From Methanobrevibacter sp. (lineage in GTDB: Archaea; Methanobacteriota; Methanobacteria; Methanobacteriales; Methanobacteriaceae), in the NCBI GenBank assembly GCA_022775905.1, contig JALFJX010000024.1:1-64000 (forward strand): a stretch of 64,000 nt of DNA, written 5' to 3'. The notes beneath the pieces are model-generated. The model saw only the letters and a list, made by a program, of their open reading frames with translations, had not been told where the DNA came from and ran no database searches. The position numbers and the translations under genes are program-made. Positions within the stretch are counted from its first letter, which is position 1; every line of letters begins with the position of its first letter. Positions 24,763 through 41,512 of this stretch are shown here, piece by piece.

Positions 24763-25053
24763 TTACAAAATTTCTATAATAAGTTCTTTTTCGTCAGTAA
24801 TATGACGCATTTCAATTAAATCATCTTCAAGCTCGTTGAAGTCTAGTTCAATAGATTGATTTAAAATTTCACCAGTTAATTGAAGCCCAACTCTAAAACC
24901 TTCACCAGTGACTTCATCTGGTTCTGTGAATCCTAAAACTTCACCAGGAGCAAAAATACGATTGTAAGATAATTCTAAAAGATCACCAACTTCCACGTTG
25001 GTTTTAACATAATTTAATGCTTCTTCAAAGCTCATTTCTACTTCTTCTACCAT
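24763..25053 (-). CDS. DUF2098-like protein, paralogue 2
   Basis: 96 residues from the ATG at 25053, with AGGTG upstream. It shares the pattern VGDLLELSYNRIFAPGEVLG with paralogue 1 and has the same length. It is the first gene after the fwd operon on the same strand, 48 bases past the fwdC stop but behind a hairpin. The repeated linkage to fwd suggests, without proof, a role connected with the dehydrogenase. Confidence 0.7.
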   Translation of the reverse strand: MVEEVEMSFEEALNYVKTNVEVGDLLELSYNRIFAPGEVLGFTEPDEVTGEGFRVGLQLTGEILNQSIELDFNELEDDLIEMRHITDEKELIIEIL

Positions 25054-25101
25054 TCTATACACCTATATTAATTTTTAAAAAAAAAGAAAAAGAGAGAGGA
25101 A

Positions 25102-25968
<867 letters not shown>

Positions 25969-25979
25969 ACTAAACACCC

Positions 25980-27695
25980 CTATTTACCTTCAACGTCTAC
26001 TCTAATTGGGTTGGATACGTAGTGATCGTGTACTGGGTAGTTTTCCCATTTGACTGAGTAATATTGAGTGAAGAACGGCATAATGTTGTCGATAACTTTT
26101 TGCTCGTTTTGTTCCCAACCTTTTACGTTAACCCAAATGTTTTGACTTTCTTTAACTTTTACAATTTCTTTGTCTTTTACTAAGATTTGACCATCTTTAA
26201 TAGTGTATTGAGCAATATCGAAACCTTTTTCGATTTCAGCAGCTTGTCTGGATGGGTCAATTTCATTAGGATTTATGTCATATACAGCAATGTCTGCTCT
26301 GTAACCAGGGGTGAGTGCACCTCTGTCTTGGAATCCGTAGATTTTAGCAGGAGCAGATCTTGTAATAGTTGCAATATCGTAGAAATCGTATTCTCTGTCG
26401 AGAGTTGCAAGGGTGGTTCTTTTTTCTGCCCATTTGTGAACTTCTCTGTTTTCAATCATTTCCATTCTTCTTTGGTTACTCATTAACCAAGAGATAATTC
26501 TAGGATATCTAGTGAATGGACCTGCGTTAGGGTGGTCAGTGGTTAAACATACTTTCCATGGGTCATCAATGTGTAAGAACAATTCAAGACCAATAGCCCA
26601 TTGTAAAGTGTTAACAGGGTTTTTAGCTGAGTAAATACATGGAATAATACCTGCTGCGGTTTCACATTCAATATCTTTGTTGGTCCATTTTAAACCAGAT
26701 AATTTGAATAAGTCGTATTCCATAGGAGCGTCAGCAGTCATGGTAGTAGTTTCATCAAAAGTAACTTGTCCTACATCACAAGTAACGTGGTCGTTTTTGT
26801 TAATGTATTTAGCAACTTCTTCAGCACCAGATGCAGCATCTTTCCAACTGTTACCAGTGTAAGAGTGGAATTGTAAGTGACAAAGGTGCATAATTTGATC
26901 TCTGACATCAGCAGCGCCTGAACCTTTTTTGATACCTTTTACTGCTTCCATGGTTTCGAGAGTAGTAGGTACGTTTCCAGGGTGTCCTAAGTCATTAGGG
27001 TGAATGTGGATAGAGTGAGGTAAGTTTAACATTTCGTTAGCTTTTGCTAAAGCAATAACAACTTCTTTAGAAGTTACGTCAAAGTATGGTGCTTTATCGT
27101 TAATACCATGTACGTTCATACCCCAACCCCATGCTTCACTTCCACATGGGTTTACGATTTTAATTCCGTAACCTTTTGAGATTTTTAACCATGCAGATAC
27201 AAATGCTGCAATGTCTTCAATATTGTTATCTTTTGCGTATTCCATTACAAACCAGTTGTTACCGAATAATGGTAAAGCTGGAATGTCTAATTGAGGAATA
27301 GTTGCAATTTCTTCGTGAGTGTGTTTTGCTTCAAGAGGCGGCATAGCTGCTTCAACAACAGTACCGTAACCTAATCTTGAGTATCTGTAACCAGTTGCAG
27401 GACAACTTGGGATAGAGAATCCAGATTCAGATCTTAATACTTTAGTTTTTTGAGTAACACCTCTTCTGGAATCTTCAGGCCTGTATAATCTTCCGACTAC
27501 AAGTTTTGGACCTGCAACGTGAGCGTGAGGGTCAATACCTGCTGGCATGACTATTTTATCGGTAACGTCTAAGACTTTAGCATCTGCAGATACATCATCT
27601 ACAATAATACCATCTTTGAACATAACGTCTTTTTTCTCACCGTTAATTTCATTAGCTGGGTCGTAGACAATACCATTTTTAAGAATATATTCCAT
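25980..27695 (-). CDS. fwdA: Formylmethanofuran dehydrogenase subunit A
   Basis: Binuclear-metal amidohydrolase subunit that joins formate, delivered from FwdB, to methanofuran. 571 residues. Metal ligands include HAHVAG near residue 58, [12 protein letters not shown] near 228, LCHLQFHSY near 270 and TTDHPNAG near 390. AAGGTGAT is placed three bases before the ATG. Nine bases after fwdB. Confidence 0.97.
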
Positions 27696-27704
27696 TATAT
27701 CACC

Positions 27705-29081
27705 TTATAATGCGTTTGGATTTGGTACGAATTTTGGAGCTACGTTAGGCTCTTCTCTGAGTTTCATTACTCTTTCTTTCAATTCACGGACAATCCATTC
27801 GTCGTCACGACAAGTTTCAGGTTTGTCGATTGCTTTTTTCATGTATATAGGAACTCCATCCATACGGTAACTTGTACCAGCACATTCAACAGCAATGAAT
27901 GAACCTGGTAATACTACGTCAGCGAGTTCGGTGGAAGGTCCCCAGTGAATATCGATTTGGATAACAGGAATGTTAGCTAAGTGTTGGTTTGCTCCATTAG
28001 GGAAGTGAGCACCAGGGTCCGCTGCAATAACCATGAAACAGTCAGGTTCTTTTCTGACTAATAAATCGATAGTGTTGGTTTCACCTAACATATATCTTGG
28101 GTATCCTCTACAGTAGTCAACACCGAAAGCGAATCCACATTCAAATGCCATGAAGATGTTGAATCCGTTTACGTTAAAGTGACCTCTCATAGGAGTGAGT
28201 CCCCATTTACTGTATTTGTTTAAGTCTTGTACCATTTTAATAGCAATATCAATGTTTCTTTGTTTTGATAAAGTGTGGGTTAAACCTAAACCGAAGAAGA
28301 GAACACCAAATTCAGCTTGTTTCATTTCTTCTGCTAATTCGTAAATATCTTCTTTAGGAATTCCAGAAATTACATCTTGGTATAATTCTTTTCCTCTGAG
28401 TACAGCTCTAATAGCGTTGTAGAAACCGTAGTCCCCGTTTTGTTCGAATCCAATCCATTTATCAGAACATTTTGCAGTATCTGAGAATTTAGGATCCATA
28501 GTTACAACAGTTCTGTCGAATCTTCCTCTTTGTCTGAAGTATCCACGACAGAAAGCAGCGTATCTAGCTAAGTGTCTAGGGTGAGAGTTCATAGCATTAC
28601 TTCCAGAGTAAACAATCATATCAGCTCTGTTTTGAACTTCCCCTAAAGTTTGGATAGGGTAACCTGCGTTTTGTACAGCTTGGAGAGAAGGACCGTGACA
28701 GATAGTAGCTTGGTTATCTAATACAGCACCGATGTACTCACCTAATGCTACACCTTCTTTCATACATTCAGTAGAAGTTTCAGACCAACCGTAGAATACA
28801 GGCCTAATTGAGTTTGCAATGTATTCAGCAGCAGTGTCTAAAGCAGTATCCCAGTCAACTTCTTTGAGTTCTCCGTTTTCATCCCTAACCATAGGCACAA
28901 GTAATCTTTGGTCCATATCTTCCATGATTTTACTTGCTCCTAATCTGCATGCGTGTCTTACAGCAACAACGTGATTATCTTTTACTAAGTAATCTAAATC
29001 GTCACAGTTACAACCACAGAATGCACAAGTACAATTTTCAACAATGTGATCGTAATCAGTTACAGGTGGTTCATAAGTCAT
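27705..29081 (-). CDS. fwdB: Formylmethanofuran dehydrogenase subunit B (W/Mo catalytic)
   Basis: Molybdopterin-type catalytic subunit that reduces CO2 to formate. The N-terminal [4Fe-4S] cysteines are in [13 protein letters not shown] (residues 16-28) with C45; the metal-ligand cysteine is C128 in ATICHGPS, encoded TGT, so this is not a selenoprotein. 458 residues from the ATG at 29081 after GGAGG. It overlaps the fwdD end by 11 bases, showing translational coupling. Tungsten or molybdenum use cannot be told from sequence. Confidence 0.96.
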
Positions 29082-29640
29082 GATCAATCAACTCCTCCCA
29101 TTTACGTCCGTGATAAACAGGTAATTCACCTAAAGATTCCATGTTTTCAACAACATCATCATCTTCTTCATCAACGTATTTTTTGTACACCCATCTCATT
29201 AAGTCAGCCATGAGTAATACTTTTCTATCAGTTTTTTCTACAGTACATTTAATACCTTTGTAAGTAGGGTCGGAACAACAGTAGGTATCGTGGCTTACAA
29301 TAGTGTTAGCCCATGGACCTTTACAAATGAATACAGTACCTTCGTGAGGTGCATCTCTTGATACAGCACAGTTTACAACAACTTCACCGAAATCGGTTTT
29401 TACAAGAACAGTATCCCAGTTGTTTACACCTAATTTAGCCATGTCCCTAGGGTCCATGTAACAGGTACCAGATACGTTTTTATATTCTTCTTTTAAAGTG
29501 GATCCTCTTTTTTTACAAGCACCTTGGTAGATGTCAGATCCAGTGTTTAACATACATTTAAGAACATCAGTAGTTCCTTCACCAGTAATTTTTACATCAG
29601 GTACTACAGGTTTTTCTAAATAAGTATTAGCGTAATGCAT
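29071..29640 (-). CDS. fwdD: Formylmethanofuran dehydrogenase subunit D
   Basis: Molybdopterin dinucleotide-binding domain that completes the FwdB site. The barrel includes [27 protein letters not shown] and [12 protein letters not shown]. At 189 residues it is longer than the roughly 130 I expect for the family; the extra part is a C-terminal acidic tail from about residue 135 with no motif I can name. GGGGGAT precedes the ATG. Confidence 0.92.
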
Positions 29641-29653
29641 TATATAATCCCCC

Positions 29654-29884
29654 TTATTCTAACCATATAGCATTTACTGGGCAAAACATTTGACATGTTC
29701 CACACAATTCACATTTTTCAGGACTGAAGAGTTTGATAAATCCGTTTTCGACCATCATAACAACTTCTTCGGTCTTTGCACCATTACCACCAGCATTTTC
29801 TGGACTGATAGCTGCATTAACAGGACATGCGATAACACAAATACCGCATCCTAAACAATTATCTTGATTTACTTTAAGTTCCAT
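29654..29884 (-). CDS. fwdG: Formylmethanofuran dehydrogenase subunit G (2[4Fe-4S] ferredoxin)
   Basis: 76 residues with two four-cysteine motifs, [12 protein letters not shown] and [12 protein letters not shown]. Carries electrons to the FwdB centre. GGTGATAGG before ATG; 8 bases after fwdF. Confidence 0.93.
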
Positions 29885-29892
29885 CCTATCAC

Positions 29893-30990
29893 CTAATCTT
29901 TAATAGCGTCTAAAGCTTCTTTCCAAGTAGCGGAGTTAATAGGAGTGTGGTCAACTTCAGTTCTTTTTACAGTAATAGCATCGTTAGGACATGCTTTTGC
30001 ACATGCTTTACATTTTACACAGTAATCACTGTAAGCAACAACGTGTGCCATTCTGGAACCAGGACCAGTAGATACAGGGAATGCTAAAGCATTACATTGA
30101 CAGATATCTACACAAGCACCACAAGCTTGACATTTTTCATCATCAACTTCAATACTACCTTCAAATGGTTTTTTAACTTTTGCAGCATCGGTAGGACATA
30201 CGCCTTCACACCATCCACAGTAGACACAAAGGTCAGAGTCGATAATGGAGTTACCTTTAACAGCTGCTTTTGAAGGATCTAAATCATATTCTCCGTAGTT
30301 ACATGCTCTACAAATTGCTTTAATAGCGTTGGTAGGGCAGGATTTTTTACATACGAGACAATATACACAAGCATCTTTATCAATAACAATGGATTCTTTA
30401 CCAGTTTCGTGATCAACGATGATTGCTTCTGCAGGACATAATTCTTCACATACACCACAGTAAATACATTCGTCTTCATCAACATCGATTTCACCAGTTA
30501 CTAAATCAGCACGGTCTGGTAAAACTCTGTCAATAACGATTGCATCACGAGGACATGCGATTTCACATCTTTTACAGTAGATACATTCATCATCATCAAT
30601 TTCTGAGAAAGCGTTGTAATGAGGATATGCTTCAATTTCTTTAATTGGTGTGCCGTCAATAGTTAATACTAATGCATCTACAGGACATAATCCACTGCAC
30701 ATACCACATAATACACATTTACTTTCGTCAATGCTTACTCTTTGAACATCAAAGTCTTCATGGAAGTTTTGAGCAATCTTTTCGTGTCCACTGAAGTAGA
30801 TGTCGTTAGAAAGTCTGTGACGAGCATCGATAGCAACTGCATTTAATGTAATTGCTTCTACAGGACAAGTAGATTCACAAATCCCACAACCTAAACAAAC
30901 ATGGTCATTGAATGACAAGTTTCTTACTTCATCAGCAGACCTTGTAATGTCAAAGTTATTGTCTTTAACCTCTTTTAAATTTCTAATCAT
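29893..30990 (-). CDS. fwdF: Polyferredoxin subunit F of formylmethanofuran dehydrogenase
   Basis: 365 residues containing eight CxxCxxCxxxC motifs (CLGC, CVLC, CIYC, CIYC, CVYC, CVYC, CQAC, CVKC), so eight [4Fe-4S] clusters, forming an electron wire into the complex. An extra CRAC pair near residue 232 lacks the other two cysteines. The ATG begins one base after the upstream regulator gene ends. Confidence 0.95.
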   Translation of the reverse strand: MIRNLKEVKDNNFDITRSADEVRNLSFNDHVCLGCGICESTCPVEAITLNAVAIDARHRLSNDIYFSGHEKIAQNFHEDFDVQRVSIDESKCVLCGMCSGLCPVDALVLTIDGTPIKEIEAYPHYNAFSEIDDDECIYCKRCEIACPRDAIVIDRVLPDRADLVTGEIDVDEDECIYCGVCEELCPAEAIIVDHETGKESIVIDKDACVYCLVCKKSCPTNAIKAICRACNYGEYDLDPSKAAVKGNSIIDSDLCVYCGWCEGVCPTDAAKVKKPFEGSIEVDDEKCQACGACVDICQCNALAFPVSTGPGSRMAHVVAYSDYCVKCKACAKACPNDAITVKRTEVDHTPINSATWKEALDAIKD

Positions 30991-30991
30991 A

Positions 30992-31441
30992 TTAAATCTC
31001 CAAAATTTTTATCGAATTAGTTGGGCATTCATCTTCACAAAGCTGACAACCACAACATTGCATGGAGTCTGCATGCGCTTGCAATGAAACTAATTTAATT
31101 GCCTTCATAGTGCATGCATTTACACATAAGCCGCAACCAATACAAGAATCTTCTACTTTTGCTTCAAAATTTCTTTCTCTGCAAATATTCACAATTTTAC
31201 GACTCTGTTCTGGATTATGAAATATTGCCTCTGTCATCATTAAAAAATCTCTGGGAGATAAGTCGATGATTGTCCTTGCAACATCAATTGAGTTCCAAGA
31301 CAAGTTTCTACCATTCAAGTAGTGTGAAATAGTAGATCTATCAACGCCTAACTCATCAGCAATTTCTTGATGACTTCTACCAGCCATTTTTAATTTGACT
31401 GCTGCAATATATTTTAAACCAGACGCAATATGTTTTGGCAT
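30992..31441 (-). CDS. HTH-ferredoxin protein heading the fwd operon
   Basis: 149 residues from the ATG at 31441, preceded by TTGGTGG; a longer open frame upstream lacks a site. Residues 1-60 form a helix-turn-helix (GRSHQEIADELGVDRSTISHYLNG). Residues about 96-148 are a two-cluster ferredoxin (CIGCGLCVNAC and CCGCQLCEDECP). It occupies the place of fwdH in Methanothermobacter and may correspond to it. A DNA-binding domain joined to Fe-S clusters suggests a redox or metal-status sensor regulating its own operon; a 19-bp palindrome sits 11 bases before its start codon. Regulatory role is inference; the domains are clear. Confidence 0.85.
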   Translation of the reverse strand: MPKHIASGLKYIAAVKLKMAGRSHQEIADELGVDRSTISHYLNGRNLSWNSIDVARTIIDLSPRDFLMMTEAIFHNPEQSRKIVNICRERNFEAKVEDSCIGCGLCVNACTMKAIKLVSLQAHADSMQCCGCQLCEDECPTNSIKILEI

Positions 31442-31452
31442 TTGAACCACCA

Positions 31453-31471
31453 ATGTGTAATGATTACACAT
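31453..31471. promoter_or_regulatory. Palindromic operator candidate, fwd side
   Basis: Perfect inverted repeat ATGTGTAA-TGA-TTACACAT. On the minus strand it lies 10-30 bases downstream of box A, covering the predicted transcription start, a position where a bound protein would block initiation. It ends 11 bases from the regulator start codon. Confidence 0.7.
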
Positions 31472-31776
31472 ATGTTTCTTTATATAAATATAGTTGCTTA
31501 CTAGATTTAAGACACAATACTTATATACTACTATGGGAATACTACACAATTTTTTTAACAAAAATTAATATACGCTCTTTAAATAATAAAATAAAATATA
31601 AATGAGAATTATAGAATAAAATAAAAGTAAATATTTTAAATTAATAAAAATTAATTAATAATAATACGTAAATACCCAAAAAAGTATCAAAAATAACAAA
31701 AATTAGTAATAAAAATAATAATAAAAAGTATTACAAAATTAAGAAAAATAACCCATAATTTTTTTGTTAACCTAAA

Positions 31777-31795
31777 ATGTGTAGTAACTACACAT
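31777..31795. promoter_or_regulatory. Palindromic operator candidate, mobB side
   Basis: Perfect inverted repeat ATGTGTAG-TAA-CTACACAT, the same as the fwd-side site except for the innermost base pair of the arms and the spacer. It lies 64 bases before mobB. Confidence 0.7.
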
Positions 31796-31859
31796 AAATC
31801 ATTTAGAAATTCTTAATTAATACCACTTACAATATATAATATTATAAGGGGAGAATATT

Positions 31860-32894
31860 ATGAAAATAGTATCTATAGTCGGAAGAAAAAATACTGGAAA
31901 AACTTCATTAACTGTAAAAGTTATTGAAGAACTTACAAAAAGAGGCTACAATGTAGCATCAATTAAGCATTCCCACCACACTATGGAAATGGATAAAGAG
32001 AATACCGATACCTGGAAACATAAACAGGCCGGATCCAATGTGGTTGTTGGTATTGGCTCAACAACTTTCTTCAATGTGAGAAAAGAAATGGATTTGAATA
32101 GATTACTATTTTTAATAAAACATATGGATATCGTTGATTTCGTTGTCATAGAAGGATTTAAAAGATACAACTACTCAAAAATTGCAACATCCCCCGATGT
32201 AGTTGATGAATACACAATAAAAGAAGTAGATTCATTTACCATTGATTATGATGGTTTAAAAGAATTGGTGGATCTTATTGAAGAAAGGTCACATGACATT
32301 GTAGATACATTATTTGCAAACAACTGTGGTTTTAACAATGGAGAAACTATCGCATCTGAAATTCGTAAAGGAAACCTAACCGTTGATCAGTTAGATAAAG
32401 TTCACAGTTACTTGTCAATTGATGGTAAAGTAGTTGGATTAAACAGATTTGTAAGCGATTATTTAAAACAAAATGTGCTTGGTGTGATTAATACCTTAAA
32501 TCTTGATGAATATAATGTTGAAAGCATAGCAAATATTGAGTTAATAATCCCTGGTGAATCCTCTGAAAAACCAATTGATGCAAAATGCACAATTTTAATT
32601 AATGACAAGAATTTGGATATAAACCACTTTACAGAAAATATTGTTGCAAACTCAATAAAAGGAATGATCAATTCCATAAAAACCGAAGACAACGTCAAGA
32701 CAATTGACATAGCAATTTCAAATATTGAAAATAATAAATTAGAAAATGCTGAAATTGAACTTAAAACAAATGACCATAATGTTGAAATTAATAAATTCAC
32801 ACAAGGAATCTTGAAAGAAACTATTTTTGCAATTATAAATTCCTTAAAAACCAATGAAAAAATTACAGAATTAAAAATCAAAGTGGAAGAATGA
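31860..32894 (+). CDS. mobB: MobB-type molybdopterin cofactor GTPase with repeat extension
   Basis: Residues 1-150 match MobB, the GTP-binding partner in attaching GMP to molybdopterin: Walker A GRKNTGKTS at 8-16, KHSHH near 36-40, and VVIEGFKRY near 95-103. The protein then continues to 344 residues. The extension holds three copies of a roughly 40-45-residue unit (186-230, 247-288, 304-342), each with a DGK/NDK turn, (N/H)xFx helix and I(N)(S/T)L then a closing strand. Four bases separate it from moaA, so the two form an operon. GGGGAG precedes the ATG. Confidence 0.88.
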   Translation: MKIVSIVGRKNTGKTSLTVKVIEELTKRGYNVASIKHSHHTMEMDKENTDTWKHKQAGSNVVVGIGSTTFFNVRKEMDLNRLLFLIKHMDIVDFVVIEGFKRYNYSKIATSPDVVDEYTIKEVDSFTIDYDGLKELVDLIEERSHDIVDTLFANNCGFNNGETIASEIRKGNLTVDQLDKVHSYLSIDGKVVGLNRFVSDYLKQNVLGVINTLNLDEYNVESIANIELIIPGESSEKPIDAKCTILINDKNLDINHFTENIVANSIKGMINSIKTEDNVKTIDIAISNIENNKLENAEIELKTNDHNVEINKFTQGILKETIFAIINSLKTNEKITELKIKVEE

Positions 32895-32898
32895 TATC

Positions 32899-33834
32899 AT
32901 GTTAGAAAATGTAGTTAAAGATAAATTTGAAAGACCTATCCTTTCACTAAGAATCACAATAACAAATAGATGCAATGAAAACTGCATTTACTGTCATCAC
33001 GATGGAATGGTTTCATCAAAGGAAGAAATGACACCTGATGAATTATACACAATAAGTAAAATAGCTAAAAAAATTGGCGTTAAAAGAATGAGACTTTCAG
33101 GTGGAGATCCATTAGTTAGAAAAGACATTGTGGAAATTGTTGAAAAAATCGCAAGCCTTGATTTTAAAGATATTTCATTAACAACCAATGGAGTATTACT
33201 TGAAAAGTATGCTCAAGGTCTTAAAGATGCAGGACTAGATAGAGTCAATGTTAGTTTAGATACATTAAACAGAGACACATACAAATATGTAACAAACATG
33301 GATTATCTAAACCAGGCAAAGGCAGGAATCCTAAAAGCTGTTGAAGTTGGATTATATCCTGTTAAAATCAACATGGTAATAATGAAAGATATTAATGAAC
33401 ATGAAATAAAAGACATGTTCGAATTCTGTAAAGAACATGGAATTATCCTTCAGTTGATAGAATTAATAGAAAGTGAAAACTGTGAAGACGACGAATTCAC
33501 AATTGAACACCACTATCCATTGGAATCTCTTGAAAATAAATTAACTGATATAGCTGATAAAGTACATGAACGTAAATTTATGCAAGGGCGTAGAAAATTT
33601 TACATTGATGGTGGAGAAATCGAGATAGTTAGACCAGTTGATAACGCTAAATTCTGCGCAAGTTGCTCCAGATTAAGGATAACCCCTGATGGAAAAATTA
33701 AACCTTGCTTACTTAGAAACGATAATCTTGTAGAAATAATTTCACATATAAGAAATGGCGAAAGTGAAGAAGAACTTGTAGAACTATTTTTAAATGGAAT
33801 TAATAATCGTGAACCATTCAATAAAGAGGATTAA
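32899..33834 (+). CDS. moaA: GTP 3',8-cyclase
   Basis: Radical SAM enzyme starting molybdopterin synthesis from GTP. 311 residues. The N-terminal cluster motif is CNENCIYCHHDG, followed by LRLSGGDPL (SAM binding). The second cluster is held by CASCSRLRITPDGKIKPC near the end. Located next to mobB and between the fwd and fdh enzymes that need the pterin. Confidence 0.95.
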   Translation: MLENVVKDKFERPILSLRITITNRCNENCIYCHHDGMVSSKEEMTPDELYTISKIAKKIGVKRMRLSGGDPLVRKDIVEIVEKIASLDFKDISLTTNGVLLEKYAQGLKDAGLDRVNVSLDTLNRDTYKYVTNMDYLNQAKAGILKAVEVGLYPVKINMVIMKDINEHEIKDMFEFCKEHGIILQLIELIESENCEDDEFTIEHHYPLESLENKLTDIADKVHERKFMQGRRKFYIDGGEIEIVRPVDNAKFCASCSRLRITPDGKIKPCLLRNDNLVEIISHIRNGESEEELVELFLNGINNREPFNKED

Positions 33835-40585: not shown

Positions 40586-40642
40586 TTTATCTAATCCCAA
40601 AATCGATATTATTAATTATGATTAAAATTTTATTTATAATTG

Positions 40643-41512
40643 ATGGAATTTGAAAGTAAAGGATTGATAAGTTTAGAGATAAATGGTGAAGTTTACGGAT
40701 ATAGACTATATGAAAGTCTTGATTCCCTATCAAAAACCAAATCTCAAAGAAGGTCTGCAAAAGAGCTAAATATTTCTCATACAGTATTTAATAGAAGAAT
40801 ACTCAAAGCAGAAGAAAAGTTAGGATTTAAGCTTACAAAAAAAGTGGGAAATGGAACTGCACTTACACAAGAAGGGTTGGATTTACTGGAAGAATTTAAG
40901 AAATATGCAATCCAAATCGAAAAAACTTCCACCATCAACATTGTCGGAGGCCACATAAGCACTGGTCTTTTGGAAAGTATAGATCTTCCATTCAAAACAA
41001 ATATTTATAGTAGCAACGATGAAGATGCATTTGAACTTGCTAAAAGAGGAGTTGTTGACCTATTAACACTTGATGATCCTTTAATAGCATTTGAAAGGGA
41101 CATAAATTTCTACCCAATAGCTTACGATTATTTGGTTCTTGTATCAAGCCCAAATTCCAAAAAAATTGAAACAATTTCAGACCTAGAAAACCTTGATTTT
41201 GTAAGTGTATCCGGATCTGCACAAAGGCTTGCATGGGACAGTTTGAGGCACTATGATATACATGTAAACATTAAAGAAAGTGTAAGTTCACAATTTGATG
41301 CATACAAATTAGTCAGAGACTCAAAAAATTTGCATACTTTTTTAAATGCAAGCTATTTTAAAGGCAATGAACTTTTAAAATTCGATACACAACATGTAAT
41401 CAGTTTAGTTAAAGTTAATGAAGACAAAACAGAAGTGAATGATTTCATTAAATACTTAACTAATGAAGAAGGTCAGAAAACCATTGAAAAACAAGGTTTT
41501 ACCCCAATGTAA
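40643..41512 (+). CDS. ModE-like HTH regulator with substrate-binding-protein domain
   Basis: The first 85 residues are a ModE/LysR-type winged helix (SLSKTKSQRRSAKELNISHTVFNRRILKAEEKLGFKL). From about residue 95 a periplasmic-binding-like domain follows (INIVGGHISTGLLESI), but without a signal peptide, so it senses a ligand inside the cell. By analogy it could respond to molybdate or tungstate; the nearby fdh, fmdE and fdhD genes make that attractive. A TTTATAAT box is only about ten bases before the ATG, so the start may lie slightly further in. Confidence 0.7.
   Translation: MEFESKGLISLEINGEVYGYRLYESLDSLSKTKSQRRSAKELNISHTVFNRRILKAEEKLGFKLTKKVGNGTALTQEGLDLLEEFKKYAIQIEKTSTINIVGGHISTGLLESIDLPFKTNIYSSNDEDAFELAKRGVVDLLTLDDPLIAFERDINFYPIAYDYLVLVSSPNSKKIETISDLENLDFVSVSGSAQRLAWDSLRHYDIHVNIKESVSSQFDAYKLVRDSKNLHTFLNASYFKGNELLKFDTQHVISLVKVNEDKTEVNDFIKYLTNEEGQKTIEKQGFTPM

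Follow-up and report, generated by a model that had tools for sequence, protein, structure and literature searches.

FwdH, a helix-turn-helix-ferredoxin protein encoded at the head of the formylmethanofuran dehydrogenase operon of Methanobacteria, is a probable autoregulator with conserved palindromic operators

The window analysed here is a stretch of 64,000 nucleotides from a Methanobrevibacter sp. (NCBI GenBank assembly GCA_022775905.1, contig JALFJX010000024.1, positions 1 to 64,000 of the forward strand). The fwdH gene lies on the minus strand (31441-30992), with the ATG at 31441 and a stop codon that ends at 30992, and encodes 149 amino acids; the assignment was supported by Pfam, AlphaFold models and orthologues, nearly all of which keep the start MPKHI. 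The protein was divided into an HTH_3 DNA-binding domain (residues 1-59), a helical linker (60-90) and a 2[4Fe-4S] ferredoxin domain (91-149). The gene for the polyferredoxin subunit, fwdF (29893-30990, minus strand; NCBIfam NF042909, 438 bits, above the cut-off), starts at 30990, one base past the fwdH stop, and fwdH is the first gene of the predicted fwd operon; it directly precedes fwdF in other genera too. The remainder of the predicted operon (25102-29884, minus strand) consists of fwdG, fwdD, fwdB, fwdA and fwdC. The products of fwdB, fwdA and fwdC scored above the cut-offs of TIGR03129, TIGR03121 and TIGR03122, respectively, fwdD matched NF042908 with a score below the cut-off, and fwdG was assigned because of where it lies and because its product carries two Fer4-type motifs. 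A 99-aa ORF on the same strand 3' of fwdC (24763-25062), without NCBIfam match, is possibly an unrecognised last gene of the operon. Divergent from fwdH are mobB (31860-32894, plus strand; molybdopterin-guanine dinucleotide synthesis) and, as the second gene of this unit, moaA (32899-33834, plus strand). MobB is 344 aa long and carries repeated modules (HFTENIVANSIKGMINSIK / KFTQGILKETIFAIINSLK) C-terminal of the MobB domain; the match of many of its relatives in other genera is confined to the first 230 aa.

The Pfam HTH_3 profile matched FwdH at residues 18-46 with 27.1 bits (gathering score, 23), over profile positions 6-35 of 55 only. From residue 96 on, two Fer4 matches passed the Pfam thresholds. 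The residues of the recognition helix (R35, S36, T37, S39, H40, Y41, G44 and N46) were invariant in 50 aligned FwdH sequences, and the eight cluster-ligand cysteines in 49. The AlphaFold model of the protein was confident (pLDDT 94, pTM 0.86), and fold comparisons were performed with VIA-align. Residues 91-149, which hold the two CxxCxxCxxxC motifs, have the ferredoxin fold: over 55 aligned residues they superposed on the clostridial 2[4Fe-4S] ferredoxin 1fdn with Z 8.3 and an rmsd of 1.4 A. When residues 1-91 were folded alone, most of the structural neighbours were HTH proteins that bind DNA, among them DeoR (Z 6.6), an HTH protein of a rudivirus (6.2), ParB and TrpR, a Z of 6.6 being middling for the HTH part. 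Foldseek gave no match below 0.001 with either model. Since the structural scores of the N-terminal model are middling, the case for the HTH relies chiefly on the sequence profile.

Three copies of a palindromic element lie around the divergent promoters. O1 (31453-31471) is a perfect palindrome of 19 bp (9+1+9), ATGTGTAATGATTACACAT, located 11 bases 5' of the fwdH ATG. O2 (31532-31548, minus strand) is a degenerate copy, TGTGTAGTATTCCCATA, with two mismatches in the window; it is at -107, a position kept across the class. O3 (31777-31795), again a perfect palindrome (ATGTGTAGTAACTACACAT), lies 64 bases 5' of the mobB ATG and 324 bp from O1. A preceding sequence-only reading had described the HTH joined to two [4Fe-4S] motifs one base before fwdF and a palindrome 11 bases before its start; both descriptions hold, the former by the Pfam HTH_3 match and the two CxxCxxCxxxC motifs and the latter as O1, while the perfect copy O3 and the degenerate copy O2 were absent from that reading. 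With at most two mismatches, the consensus ATGTGTANTNANTACACAT (ATGTGTA-N5-TACACAT) matched the 1.83-Mb genome at two places and no more, one 5' of fwdH and one 5' of mobB-moaA, and a reversed control pattern gave no match in the same 1.83 Mb; thus, the O1 palindrome is not a chance occurrence. In many sister species (for example, loci L012, L026 and L029), a second palindrome, TTTTAGGTTAACCTAAAA, adjoins O3, followed further on by a GTAATAC...GTATTAC pair; it is perhaps the site of another regulator. In the window, its counterpart (31757-31776) is degraded and not above chance.

A looser motif (TGTGT-N7-ACACA, at most one mismatch) was searched around 95 fwdH orthologues, which are non-independent, many being close relatives. 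Upstream there were 237 matches in 65 kb, versus one in 218 kb downstream of the starts. At least one match was present in all 95 orthologues, at the fixed positions of about -28, -105 and -352; O1 was found in 63 of the 95, O2 in 82 and the distal site in 65. Because of the non-independence, the figure for 22 genus-spanning representatives is more telling: 48 matches against 0.33 expected from Markov-resampled sequence. Of the 53 genomes that have O1 and O2, 49 keep the two sites 77-78 bp apart, and the mobB start lies about 60 bp beyond O3 in many species. Within the genus, the AT-rich spacer has diverged and O1, O3, the TATA boxes and the ribosome-binding site are retained. Even the most distant member, the Methanothermus-type genome G150, has an O2-like TTGTAGTAACTACAT at -105, a few bases 5' of a TATA box. 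In 60 genomes, perfect operator matches were, among the matches listed, almost exclusively at the fwdH locus.

Where extra DNA has pushed mobB out to -602, from -415, the site at -353 is retained and a second perfect one is present at -543. In three genomes a gene for a FwdF-like polyferredoxin is inserted between mobB and fwdH (L156 2518-3534, L157 1502-2515 and L128 1233-2567, the last with a small ferredoxin gene alongside); these have one perfect site near -352 of fwdH and another 5' of mobB. Since a site accompanies mobB when an insertion displaces the gene, the comparison argues that the fwdH-side and mobB-side sites are both real operators.

On the fwdH strand the order of elements is O2, TATATAAG, TTTATATA, O1, GGTGR and ATG. 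The predicted distal TATA box (TATATAAG; 31520-31527, minus strand), which was assigned from conservation and the archaeal promoter consensus, is just 3' of O2. The predicted proximal box (TTTATATA; 31481-31488, minus strand), also conserved, lies about 10 bp 5' of O1, and a likewise conserved mobB TATA box (CTTAATTAAT; 31812-31821, plus strand) is predicted 3' of O3. O1 would thus cover the start site expected from the proximal promoter, and O2 abuts the distal TATA box; so placed, a bound protein would block TFB or the polymerase. O3, about 20 bp 5' of the predicted mobB TATA box, would be compatible with repression, activation or looping.

Candidates for a wider regulon gave no coherent picture: the own genome has four further sites with one mismatch. 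One, before hdrA, is asymmetric (TGTGTATTTACTACATA) and conserved in the genus; it was kept as a weak candidate only, given its overlap with the hdrA promoter and a half-site that matches in no case. Three features mark the hdrA leader itself (L191-L220; contig C19 of the own genome, about 2836-2940): TATCTAA...TTAGATA, an inverted repeat that is conserved; CTTGTACAAGGTG, which precedes the start and hardly varies; and a half-matching TGTGTA...TACATA site. They may represent an RNA element or an extended regulon. In another genus (g17; L182 1-3500), two tandem operator-like sites (ATGTGTTCTTACCACACAT) lie 5' of a NiFe hydrogenase operon, a possible extra target.

A whole-genome search found full-length orthologues of FwdH (residues 1-149) across the order. 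In eight genomes of a second family (f2), one of which (G148) we take to be Methanothermobacter thermautotrophicus Delta H, FwdH was 56-59% identical over residues 1-149, and a more distant genome, presumably Methanothermus fervidus, also has it (E 3e-59). The architecture was found in every tested genus of Methanobacteria that retains fwdF. Because full-length orthologues span the order, including family f2 and the Methanothermus-type genome, the HTH-ferredoxin fusion is ancestral to the class and no oddity of this genome. Under family cut-offs, 11 of 26 genomes had FwdH, FwdF and MoaA, and 15 were without all three. The genomes in which the three are absent together are 13 of genus g12 and one each of g14 and g16 (G132 and G136); this joint loss fits methanogens that no longer use the Mo/W-pterin step of CO2 reduction. 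The concordance of all 26 genomes suggests that a regulator FwdH has been inherited along with its targets.

Outside the class, one other archaeal phylum and Methanopyrus-type genomes were covered. With the N-terminal profile (E 1e-6), a FwdH-like full-length protein was found in none of 294 genomes of 107 genera in that phylum, where the single match was an HTH inside a 479-codon frame. The Methanopyrus-type genomes encode a protein homologous over both domains and of the same length class (E 6.6e-12; L224 1222-1707, also L221-L223). It is not encoded with fwd but right after a flippase-like gene, and no operator was found near it. Because this homologue sits away from fwd, the architecture may have been recruited to fwd within Methanobacteria.

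FNR, IscR and NsrR are Fe-S cluster transcription factors in which an HTH is joined to a cysteine-ligated cluster, with other folds and one cluster; in FwdH, by contrast, the proposed sensor is a complete bacterial-type 2[4Fe-4S] ferredoxin domain. A closely similar system is that of Methanothermobacter, in which FwdH, the product of the first gene of fwdHFGDACB, has the HTH and 2[4Fe-4S] domains and the same operator is present at -27 and -105; the locus differs in that an fdhA-like gene, not mobB, is directly upstream of fwdH. The sequence-only reading had matched the position of the gene with this fwdH, which was an understatement: the full-length proteins are orthologous, about 58% identical and encoded at the equivalent place. 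Its suggestion to look for the HTH in other FwdH sequences was answered by the invariant recognition helix, and comparative genomics gives good support to its view that FwdH is a transcription factor and not an enzyme subunit: the HTH and its recognition helix are invariant, the operator is kept at fixed places across the class, the sites are nearly unique in the genome and FwdH is missing from the solved complexes. Methanothermobacter offers a further likeness in Tfx, a small DNA-binding protein whose gene adjoins a formylmethanofuran dehydrogenase operon (PMC3087415). Tfx is a regulator of fmdECB; FwdH differs by its XRE-like HTH, its Fe-S clusters and its tungsten-type operon, and no match to the Tfx family was found in it by the Pfam scan.

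Published lists call FwdH an enzyme subunit, with FwdA-DFGH as the enzyme (PMC3087415), although the present evidence points to a regulator. FwdH could be a loosely bound electron-transfer subunit or assembly factor, with its HTH-like head as a protein-protein module or a relic and the palindromes serving another regulator; that it is listed as an enzyme component, shares one predicted operon with fwdF and has a ferredoxin domain would agree with this. However, the recognition-helix residues rank among the most conserved positions of FwdH, and the operator is restricted to this locus, at which no DNA-binding protein other than FwdH is encoded next to it. Moreover, solved complexes are without FwdH: a search of the PDB with the FwdH profile gave no chain better than generic ferredoxin regions, and FwdF chains of several Fwd complexes are present there (5t5i, 9sw6 and 7bkb). 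Stoichiometric co-purification with Fwd, the result that the sequence-only reading had named as speaking against its own proposal, is not seen in these complexes, which is no proof for cells, since absence from a crystal is not absence from the cell. We regard a role as such a subunit or factor as unlikely.

The link between FwdH and the operators is drawn from location, and another regulator could bind there. The window encodes, near fdh genes, an LysR-type HTH fused to a solute-binding-protein-like domain (40640-41512), a candidate molybdate/tungstate regulator. That the palindromes are sites of a regulator of this kind, with FwdH incidental, would accord with their position at cofactor genes (mobB and moaA) and a Mo/W enzyme and with this LysR-like HTH and solute-binding protein 9 kb away; but sites would then be expected at transport and other cofactor genes, of which the own genome has none within two mismatches, and the sites track fwdH and mobB through rearrangement, which makes this explanation quite improbable. 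A further possibility concerns the mRNA: O1, which has GGTGA immediately 3' of it and in the window a folding energy of -9.7 kcal/mol, might act as a leader hairpin beside the ribosome-binding site in translational control, with or without FwdH. Yet the same sequence recurs in O2 and O3, neither of which is within the predicted leader; variation in the left arm (A or T) goes without compensation in the right arm, and the hairpin is lost in some species. We give this explanation very little credence.

We therefore favour, with good though not full confidence, the interpretation of FwdH as a DNA-binding autoregulator of fwd and of tungsto/molybdopterin synthesis that has been misnamed as a subunit, a view built on comparison of sequences. 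Note that some points stand against it: O1 is clear in only 63 of the 95 orthologues, the O2 of the own genome is degenerate and the Methanopyrus homologue is away from fwd. FwdH would probably contact DNA as a dimer through its XRE-like HTH, with TGTGTA-N5-TACACA palindromes as its targets. In its own promoter these are O1, which overlaps the predicted start site and the ribosome-binding region, and O2, next to the distal TATA box; the third, O3, belongs to the divergent mobB-moaA promoter. In this way it would couple the level of formylmethanofuran dehydrogenase to how much pterin cofactor is available. Because a repressor bound at the operators would stand in the way of TFB or RNA polymerase, we infer negative autoregulation as the most likely mode. 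The likely input is the C-terminal 2[4Fe-4S] domain: DNA binding would change when a cluster is gained, lost or reduced, and the clusters would act as sensors of redox or Fe-S state. Signalling of redox or metal state from the clusters to the promoter, as the sequence-only reading proposed, is plausible in view of the eight invariant cysteines and the ferredoxin fold. A metal on/off switch via FwdH is less likely, because the tungsten Fwd is stated to be formed constitutively in Methanothermobacter (PMC3087415); constitutive formation would still leave room for autoregulation of a homeostatic kind, or for a sensor of redox, iron or cluster supply. Only tentatively, we suggest that the ferredoxin domain trades electrons with FwdF or with the ferredoxin pool feeding CO2 reduction, so that its redox state would set the transcription of fwd and the tungstopterin pathway and the ferredoxin would be the repressor itself.

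In the literature searched, no description of FwdH as a regulator was found. In hydrogenotrophic methanogens, the opening step of CO2 reduction is also the most demanding in energy, and little is known of its control. According to a review, no H2 sensor has been found (PMC3087415). For methanogens of gut and rumen, the present analysis supplies a candidate regulator with a defined operator and a regulon of two promoters, and the regulator interpretation would correct the subunit name that FwdH has carried from the description of the operon onwards. Should its ferredoxin domain be the sensor, FwdH would be an unusual direct link from electron supply to transcription in archaea.
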